Shown here: piece after piece, positions 60,808-62,294 of the stretch
How positions within the stretch are numbered: the stretch's first letter is position 1
Layout of the letters: each line of letters opens with the position of its first letter
DNA from: Sphingomonas sinipercae
GTDB taxonomy: Bacteria; Pseudomonadota; Alphaproteobacteria; Sphingomonadales; Sphingomonadaceae
NCBI RefSeq assembly: GCF_011302055.1
Contig: NZ_CP049871.1
Coordinates: 578,501-642,500 of the forward strand
Reading direction: 5' to 3'
DNA: 64,000 bases
Program-made: the position numbers and the translations under genes
The notes under the pieces: generated by a model
The model's input: the letters and a program-made list of their open reading frames with translations, nothing else
Told to the model about the DNA's origin: nothing
Database searches by the model: none

Positions 60808-61209
60808 TCAGGAAAAATGGTCGATGCCGTCGCCGACGATTTCGACCCAGGGTTGCTTGCGGCCTTCGTACACGGAGTAGAGCGGCTGGGCATGGAAGGG
60901 CGCGTCGAAGGCGCCGACCGCGACGGCGATCAAGCCGCTCATCTCGCCGTCTACCGCGTAGAACATCGGCGCGCCGCAGGTCGGGCAGAAGGAAAAGGTG
61001 CCGGTGTTGCCGCTGTCGCCGGTGTACGACCAGCTTCTGGCCTCACCCTCGATTGTGACCCGGTCGGCGGGCCAGCGCGCCTGCGCGGCAAAGGCGCTGC
61101 CTGAGCGCTTCTTGCATTCGAGGCAGTGGCAGACGGACACTCTGACCGGCTCGCCGGTGGCAGTGAGGCGAAGCTGGCCGCAGCGGCAGGAGGCGGTGCG
61201 GGTGGTCAC
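60808..61209 (-). CDS. GFA-family zinc-binding protein
   Basis: This 133-residue protein of the glutathione-dependent formaldehyde-activating superfamily has motifs CRCG (residues 8-11), CHCLECKKRSG (about 26-36) and CPTCG (about 73-77). It starts at GTG 61207-61209 with TTGGAG upstream. That GTG overlaps the stop of the GIY-YIG gene (GTGA), and the ribosome-binding site lies next to the end of the 30-bp repeat. It is a second GFA protein in the window, not closely similar to the one at 36041. Confidence 0.88.
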   Translation of the reverse strand: MTTRTASCRCGQLRLTATGEPVRVSVCHCLECKKRSGSAFAAQARWPADRVTIEGEARSWSYTGDSGNTGTFSFCPTCGAPMFYAVDGEMSGLIAVAVGAFDAPFHAQPLYSVYEGRKQPWVEIVGDGIDHFS

Positions 61210-61535
61210 TTTTCTCCAATTCCGTTCGTCCCGAGCGAAGTCGAGGGGCGCTCTCTTGGCGGTCGAGCAAAATGCGACAGGGTTCGCCAGTCGCTGCGTA
61301 TCAGCGCCTCCTTTTTGGATCTCGACCAAGGCTTGATCCGCCGTTCCGCCTCCAGAGCTTCCAGTCTGCTCCCGAAACCCTGCGACCAGACGAGTTCAAT
61401 CGGCCGCCTACGCCGCGTCCAGTCGCCGCCTTCTCCACGAGCGTGCTGGGCGATCCGCACGTCGAGATTGTCGGTGTGGCCGGTGTAATAAGACCCATCG
61501 CCACAGCGCAGGATGTAGGCCCAGAATGTTAGCAA
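61206..61535 (-). CDS. GIY-YIG nuclease (YhbQ/URI-like) in an inverted-repeat cassette
   Basis: This protein of about 109 residues starts at a TTG (61533-61535); no ATG or GTG fits better. It has the nuclease signature WAYILRCGDGSYYTGHTDNLDVRIAQH (GIY and YIG appear as AYI and YTG), catalytic-type Arg in DVRIAQH and Glu in LEALEAERRIK. Domain similarity ends near residue 92. The last residues (RPSTSLGTNGIGEK region) are encoded by one copy of a 30-bp dispersed repeat. Its stop overlaps the GFA start. It interrupts the ruvA-to-ruvB stretch. Confidence 0.85.
   Translation of the reverse strand: MLTFWAYILRCGDGSYYTGHTDNLDVRIAQHARGEGGDWTRRRRPIELVWSQGFGSRLEALEAERRIKPWSRSKKEALIRSDWRTLSHFARPPRERPSTSLGTNGIGEK
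61222..61251. repeat. 30-bp inverted repeat, copy A
   Basis: This sequence is the exact reverse complement of 61543-61572 over all 30 bases. Match stops sharply on both sides. It encodes the C-terminal tail of the GIY-YIG protein. The core contains a short imperfect hairpin (CTCGA with TCGGG), so the unit looks REP-like. Confidence 0.92.
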
Positions 61536-61542
61536 GATGCAG

Positions 61543-61572
61543 GCGCCCCTCGACTTCGCTCGGGACGAACGG
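61543..61572. repeat. 30-bp inverted repeat, copy B
   Basis: This is the exact inverted partner of 61222-61251. It lies 7 bp upstream of the GIY-YIG start and 30 bp after the ruvA stop. Together the copies delimit a 351-bp unit (61222-61572) containing essentially only the nuclease gene. Confidence 0.92.
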
Positions 61573-61602
61573 GGTTGGGAAGGCTGCCTGGCGAAAATTT
61601 GC

Positions 61603-62199
61603 TCACTTCGCCGCTTTCTTCAGCGCCAGCCGTACGAGCTCATCGAGGGTCGCGTCGGCACCGAGGTCGTCCAGCGCGGCGTTGACGGCGGCGCTGGCGT
61701 CGGCGGGTTTGAAGCCGAGGTTGGCGAGGGCGGACAAGGCGTCGGCGGCGGTGTTGCCGCGCGGCGGCGGGGCTCCGGCTACGCCGGCGAGGGCAGGGGC
61801 GCCGAGCTTGCCCTGCAACTCGTTGGCGATGCGGGCGGCGAGCTTGGGGCCGACGCCGTTGGCGCGGGAGATCAGGGCCTTGTCGCCGTTGGCGGCGGCG
61901 CGGGCGAGCTCGTCGGGCGGAAGGACGGAGAGGATGGCGAGCGCCAGCCGGCCGCCGACGCCCTGGATGCTGGTCAGCGCACGGAAAGCGTGGCGTTCCC
62001 CGGCAGAGCCGAACGCGAACAAGGTCCACGCGTCTTCGCGTACCTGCAGTTCGGTGAGCACCATCACCTGGCTGCCGGTGCCGCCAAGGGCCTCGAGCGT
62101 GCGGGCGCTGGCGAGCACCTGGTAGCCGACGCCGCCGACGTCGATGACGGCGCTGTCGGCGGTGACTTCAGCAAGGATGCCGGAAAGGCGGGCGATCAT
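61603..62199 (-). CDS. ruvA: Holliday junction-binding protein RuvA
   Basis: This 198-residue protein binds Holliday junctions as a tetramer and recruits RuvB. It has domain I ([12 protein letters not shown] ... [11 protein letters not shown]), the helix-hairpin-helix regions ([19 protein letters not shown] and [14 protein letters not shown]) and the flexible linker followed by the RuvB-contacting domain III ([19 protein letters not shown] ... [14 protein letters not shown]). The start ATG is at 62197-62199. ruvC ends 75 bp upstream across a palindromic repeat. Confidence 0.96.
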
Positions 62200-62223: not shown

Positions 62224-62294
62224 CGTCATTGCGAGCGCAGCGAAGCAATTCAGCGGTTCTGGATTGCCGCGTCGCTACGCTCCTCGCAATGACG
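62224..62294. repeat. Palindromic intergenic repeat between ruvC and ruvA
   Basis: CGTCATTGCGAG (62224-62235) and its exact reverse complement (62283-62294) bound an imperfect palindrome of 71 bp; inner arms also pair (GCAAT with ATTGC). The type is familiar as a dispersed repeat in alphaproteobacteria. The right half encodes the last residues and stop of ruvC. Confidence 0.88.

Follow-up and report, generated by a model that had tools for sequence, protein, structure and literature searches.

Between ruvA and a GFA-family gene, the window (the whole stretch of 64,000 nucleotides that was analysed) carries a gene for a small GIY-YIG nuclease enclosed by perfect inverted repeats. We propose, with moderate confidence, that this is a REP-bounded single-gene mobile element that was inserted here and would be driven by its own nuclease. 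The gene order at the locus is ruvC-ruvA-(unit)-GFA-DUF1622-ruvB, with GFA and DUF1622 assigned by Pfam; the names ruvC, ruvA and ruvB, taken over from an earlier sequence-only reading, are presumptive. The locus comprises:

60808..61209, minus strand: GFA-family gene, downstream of the insert (Pfam PF04828, E 2.1e-30)
61206..61211: candidate target-site duplication AAGTGA (read on the minus strand), GFA side; it provides the nuclease stop codon and overlaps the GFA start
61206..61535, minus strand: gene for the GIY-YIG nuclease of 109 aa, starting at TTG (from the ORF list; Pfam PF01541, E 1.5e-16)
61222..61251, plus strand: perfect 30-bp inverted repeat, left arm, a REP-like hairpin (sequence comparison)
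61543..61572, minus strand: right arm of the same inverted repeat
61212..61602: probable full extent of the insert (391 bp), enclosed by the two AAGTGA copies, as suggested by congeners in which GFA overlaps the ruvA end
61603..61608: second AAGTGA of the candidate target-site duplication, on the ruvA side, including the ruvA stop codon
61603..62199, minus strand: ruvA, upstream of the insert, its start taken as the ATG at 62199-62197

The sequence-only reading had described a GIY-YIG gene enclosed by exact 30-bp inverted repeats and placed between ruvA and the genes toward ruvB; this is confirmed, and the gene is intact. With these perfect arms a trait of insertion sequences and transposons, terminal inverted repeats, is present, and the inverted pairing extends to 36 nt at 94% (61216-61251 with 61543-61578). 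The same reading let the mobile unit end exactly at the arms and saw no obvious target-site duplication. At the ends of this 351-bp unit we saw none either, but the AAGTGA pair brackets 391 bp, which more likely represent the insert; the arms sit 10 and 30 bp inside its proposed ends, and a unit limited to the arms is unsupported.

Evidence for the insertion comes from the junction in the genus. Sixty congeners were searched for ruvA and 30 loci examined (29 best matches plus L072); as for the family protein matches and the named-genome sister-clade loci described below, only best matches were considered. The nuclease was present at none of these 30 ruvA loci, so relatives carrying it here without the repeats were not seen. 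In 15 of the 30, the GFA gene overlaps the ruvA stop codon (distance -1 or -4; L270 has no standard start codon there), which provides the likely empty site that the sequence-only reading had proposed to look for. The GFA gene lies 568-738 bp further on in six congeners, and no GFA gene was found at ruvA in nine, some of them cut by contig ends. Five loci from other genera comprise two with the GFA/ruvA overlap, two with GFA directly after ruvA, and one (L108) with 1.2 kb between them. G077 was dropped as a direct empty site, its junction being occupied by other genes. The stop/start overlap of ruvA with a GFA-family gene, two genes without an obvious functional link, was seen in L248, L250, L253-L260, L273, L109 and L112.

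One such overlapping junction, that of L273, reads GCGGCGAAGTGACCACGCACACCGC. The corresponding letters of the window are GCGGCG-AAGTGA on the ruvA side and, separated from them by 391 bp, AAGTGA-CCACCCGCACCGC on the GFA side. The AAGTGA pair fits an insertion leaving a candidate 6-bp target-site duplication, of which the GTGA part is forced twice because both genes need it to survive. Judged from these junctions, the unit looks like a private insertion between ruvA and GFA within the genus.

The repeat is rare in its own genome. Within the single 2.07-Mb contig, the 22-bp repeat core (at most 2 mismatches) occurs five times, as the window pair and three single copies; the latter have no facing partner within 150 bp, and a reversed control pattern of the core had no match in the whole genome. 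This count, a check named in the sequence-only reading, thus gives a rare repeat concentrated at the nuclease, and abundance without such enrichment was not seen. The genome has three small GIY-YIG genes, each with its own arm type: that of the window, TGTGCCCCTGCG (L007) and CGTCATTGCGAG (L008). Two larger GIY-YIG loci of this genome (L009 and L010) both lack arms. Eleven copies of the CGTCATTGCGAG repeat (at most 3 mismatches) were found, two of which flank the gene of L008. As a side observation, the stretch 62224-62294 between ruvC and ruvA holds a head-to-head dimer of CGTCATTGCGAG-type REPs, i.e. of the type belonging to L008, which lies outside the window. An Rfam SAH-riboswitch match overlapping this dimer is sub-threshold (24 bits, cut-off 37) and probably due to chance.

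Pairing of the gene with flanking arms is a general feature of the nuclease clade. By one measure applied to all loci (300 bp of flank), arms are present at 65 of 79 clade loci in related genomes. The 79 loci fall into 33 genomic contexts (single-linkage groups), and in 31 of these one member or more has arms; the loci are not independent, since two contexts hold 20 and 18 of them. Nine of the 14 loci without arms belong to the 18-member context, three to the 20-member context and two lie elsewhere. Within a locus both arms mostly match each other, and their sequences differ between loci. Among 119 genomes of the family, a protein match was found in 84 and the repeat in 36. One set of genomes used for comparison was hand-picked, mostly from those without the clade nuclease.

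When inverted repeats flanking the gene were searched for de novo, 26 of the first 30 clade loci scored at least 17 (400 bp of flank), and 2 of 120 shifted windows at least 15. The cut-off of 15 was set after this search; further clade loci reached it in 23 of 30 and 15 of 19 cases, compared with 1 of 60 and 0 of 114 shifted windows (300 bp). Twenty lower-scoring GIY-YIG loci (L051-L070, 400 bp), meant as a negative control, bore arms in 19 cases and therefore became a second positive clade; GFA genes then served as the control and had arms at none of 30 loci (400 bp), with a top score of 14. REPs favour intergenic space according to Di Nocera et al. 2013 (PMC3733652), so that intergenic repeats might merely happen to flank small free-standing genes. 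To this coincidence we assign a negligible probability: the copy number (five in the genome, two of them here) and the near-zero controls speak against it.

The window protein has GIY-YIG as its sole Pfam match; PADLOC and PHROGs searches gave no match, and three Rfam matches were all under the gathering score. The closest solved structures by sequence are UPF0213 GIY-YIG proteins, 1zg2 (E 3.8e-17) and 1ywl (E 3.1e-12). Y7, Y17, R27 and E64, which we take to be the catalytic residues of a GIY-YIG nuclease, are kept in 76, 77, 79 and 78 of the 79 clade members. Gene and arms overlap closely. The left arm is translated as part of the C-terminus (RPSTSLGTNG), so that RPSTSLGTNGIGEK forms the end of the protein, and the stop codon lies at 61206-61208; relatives in the genus show a similar C-terminal tail. 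At the other end, GAGGGG of the right arm precedes the TTG start by 10 nt, with the same spacing before the ATG in L277, suggesting that it may be used as ribosome-binding site. Relatives on plasmids (45 records) have less than 60% identity. The sequence-only reading had brought in homing endonucleases, an identity for which we find no support: the gene is free-standing between two coding genes, without the residence in an intron, an intein or a cleaved allele as for GIY-YIG homing endonucleases.

The arms were also said to form a small REP-like hairpin. Taken alone, the window arm folds weakly, at -3.4 kcal/mol (z +0.71), and 153 of 200 shuffled sequences fold as well; the stem is supported by covariation between loci instead. 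Among 147 distinct arms with the core GAGC-N-GTCGA, stem positions 1 to 5 form Watson-Crick pairs in 145, 141, 136, 120 and 108 arms, with two to four pair types per position, and sliding the stem partner by one or two positions lowers pairing to 23-107 of 147. Of 179 core instances near nucleases, 138 face the gene in the same orientation as in the window and 41 do not. Arm types are lineage-specific: of the 65 arm pairs of the clade, 57 contain the core and 4 contain GTCRY; of the 93 pairs of the sister clade, none contains the core and 80 contain GTCRY. Within the clade, the loop type equals that of the nearest nuclease from a different context in 44 of 57 cases (shuffle mean 30, p 0.001; label shuffling ignores relatedness, and eight of the 65 pairs had no assignable type and were left out).

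In the sister clade, the arms of L051-L070, which come from the same family genomes, are mostly CGTC-type REPs, and lower-scoring GIY-YIG loci within the genus had arms in 9 of 10 cases. A scan of named genomes (300 bp), covering the best 80 of at least 578 loci, gave arms with a score of at least 15 at 65 of 80 loci, compared with 2 of 293 shifted windows; L137 and L157 among the 80 are probably the same loci as L069 and L058, whose contigs agree with theirs in length and position. These best 80 loci are mostly proteobacterial. Outside the Proteobacteria, arms passed in records of Elusimicrobia, Omnitrophota and candidate division LCP-89, and scores of only 7 to 14 were obtained for two Anaerolineae, two Planctomycetota and one each of Myxococcota, Ignavibacteriales and Nitrospirae. 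The Neisseria relatives L187 (Neisseria gonorrhoeae) and L206 have dRS3-like inverted arms. Most of the small GIY-YIG genes examined here have matching arms.

CGTC REPs are described as abundant in some genomes, and Neisseria dRS3 is classed as a CGTC-1 repeat; according to that paper, they are not associated with transposase genes and a dedicated transposase is apparently lacking; GIY-YIG is not mentioned there (PMC3733652). We tentatively suggest that CGTC-type REPs have dedicated mobilisers in the small GIY-YIG nucleases, with every lineage moving its own hairpin by GIY-YIG cutting without a transposase, and with bare dimers as non-autonomous forms; this broader proposal appears possible rather than probable. 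If the repeats were instead moved by an unrelated transposase (RAYT or IS), the nuclease gene would be a passenger, as might be thought from genomes with many repeat copies and no close nuclease. This is very unlikely, given that the arm type tracks the nuclease clade and that CGTC repeats lack the association with transposase genes. G085, G053 and G003 are the genomes in question, with 47, 23 and 17 copies and no close clade nuclease; such copies may be relics after loss or point to another mobiliser. In G053, the 23 copies include eight close pairs, seven of them in the same order. G112 differs from other repeat-rich genomes in having 41 copies on one strand and a single copy on the opposite strand, perhaps as a tandem array.

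Across the genus, repeat number follows the nuclease. At least two copies were found in 17 of 20 genomes with a clade nuclease and in 15 of 51 without (71 genomes; Fisher 3.5e-5), and in genomes at least 95% complete in 14 of 15 and 8 of 37 (2.2e-6). When two copies were subtracted per nuclease genome, p was 0.0016 (all) and 1.7e-4 (at least 95% complete); none of these values is corrected for relatedness.

The commonest clade site in the genus lies between genes presumed to be yqeY and dnaG (eight genomes). This gap holds the repeat at 7 of 8 loci with the gene and in none of 23 congeners without it, 10 of which have a gap of only 2-67 bp. At one of these sites (L281) both repeat copies point the same way. 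In the genome of the window, no dnaG turned up in the neighbourhood of yqeY (L319). With 20 of the 79 clade loci at this one conserved site, much of the spread is vertical. Such conservation of position in many genomes also agrees with a non-mobile regulator of DNA uptake or recombination resembling Ssn, in which the repeats would be recognition sites kept for autoregulation or matched by gene conversion, and spread would occur by homologous recombination only. The concerted evolution of the arms within a locus, the reported action of Ssn on transformation and the N. gonorrhoeae relative with dRS3-like arms (L187) point the same way. We regard this as rather unlikely, because the unit sits at a new site in the window's genome and at another in G167, and a sister unit has multiplied to nine copies with common deletions in G071.

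The G167 unit (L277) is located between ruvC and ruvA and shows no sharp duplication. Of 27 congener loci with both genes, 10 have a ruvC-ruvA gap of no more than 15 bp, and in five congeners this gap holds bare head-to-head dimers of the window repeat class; in G127, one dimer half in this gap is the variant of the genome's own nuclease arms (L257, L291). Over L247-L275, the gap resembles an insertion hot spot, with REP dimers of different classes in some loci and at most 15 bp in ten others. One may also imagine homing-like spread, in which the gene invades the spacer of existing REP dimers and the dimer is the cleaved target. The gene indeed takes the place of the spacer in a head-to-head dimer, and the ruvC-ruvA gap has a bare dimer in G150 (L247) and a gene-bearing unit of the same variant in G167. 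We consider this unlikely for the window, as in 15 of 30 congeners the ruvA-GFA junction is too tight to hold a dimer; the insertion there therefore seems to have brought its own arms. The coding sequence of a carA-like gene (L276, 1-903, minus strand; the name carA is likewise presumed) apparently contains a head-to-head dimer of the repeat in frame (RPSTSLGTN...SFVPSEVE).

The strongest evidence for mobility is the multi-copy unit of G071, but it concerns the sister clade. G071 has seven nearly full-length and two shorter copies, 86-97% identical to the query. Four copies that were compared align over 443-489 bp and not beyond, except for one other short repeat. A 47-bp deletion is common to two of the seven, and a larger one to both shorter copies, so the deletion forms have been copied themselves.

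A single-gene mobile element driven by its nuclease is thus the reading that we prefer. The GIY-YIG nuclease would recognise the hairpin formed by the repeat of its lineage, probably in single-stranded DNA, and would cut at it; two facing repeats would delimit the moving unit. With the gene between them, the unit would be autonomous; without a gene, a bare head-to-head REP dimer would result and could be moved in trans. For the window, we infer cutting of the repeat by the nuclease, movement driven by this cutting, and target-site duplication as the origin of the AAGTGA pair. The comparisons made here, all at the level of sequence, give gene/arm pairing, lineage-specific arm variants, hairpin covariation and a likely empty site, and for the sister unit in a relative, dispersed copies with deletions in common. 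With a lineage-matched nuclease partner, the origin and spread of CGTC REPs can be tested directly on a single small protein and a single hairpin, for which the genus is a convenient system, having few repeat copies per genome and clean junctions in relatives. If nuclease-driven movement is true, there would be a further way for DNA to move that needs no transposase.

The sequence-only reading had drawn an analogy to RAYT/REP systems (REPtrons, REPINs). The layout and the likely empty site in relatives bear this out; nuclease-driven movement is the part that is only inferred. As in REPtrons, one enzyme gene is flanked by matching inverted REPs (65 of 79 clade loci), the REP type follows the enzyme lineage, and bare dimers occur elsewhere in relatives. 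In contrast to RAYTs, a GIY-YIG nuclease, the only Pfam match of the protein, replaces the HUH tyrosine transposase, and the unit, which would work like a RAYT/REP system, is not a RAYT, because the defining transposase is absent. CGTC REPs form head-to-head dimers dispersed in the genome, an arrangement seen for the window repeat class in congeners but not for the three single copies of its own genome. Sister-clade nucleases are flanked by repeats of the CGTC type. CGTC REPs have an unpaired CGTC tag, a stem of 8-9 bp, a loop of 4-5 nt and a CCA-like tail (PMC3733652). These features fit the sister-clade arms better than the window arm, whose core is GAGC-N-GTCGA, whose CGTC falls in the covarying stem (positions 3-6 outward) and which has no CCA tail.

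Judged by titles and the beginnings of abstracts, none of the papers listed appears to link GIY-YIG to REPs; mobility evidence and a link to the transposase-less CGTC REPs were likewise not found in print in this material. The nearest relative in kind is Ssn. Chenal et al. 2025 (Nat Commun) are reported to describe Ssn as site-specific GIY-YIG nucleases cutting single-stranded DNA at a dispersed Neisseria repeat, with many homologues of other specificities. Ssn is thus reportedly also a small single-domain GIY-YIG protein with a dispersed repeat, and the window protein has the single domain (Pfam) and the presumed catalytic residues. It is 32% identical over 85 residues to the N. gonorrhoeae relative (E 1.7e-8), and it differs from Ssn in its repeat core and in coming with insertion evidence. 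The nuclease/repeat pairing of Ssn probably anticipates the gene-repeat pairing described here. If this account of Ssn holds, pairing of enzyme and repeat is known in kind, and what is new is that this clade has a hairpin core of its own, that a candidate duplication accompanies the likely empty site, that deletion forms have multiplied, and that there is a link to CGTC REPs.
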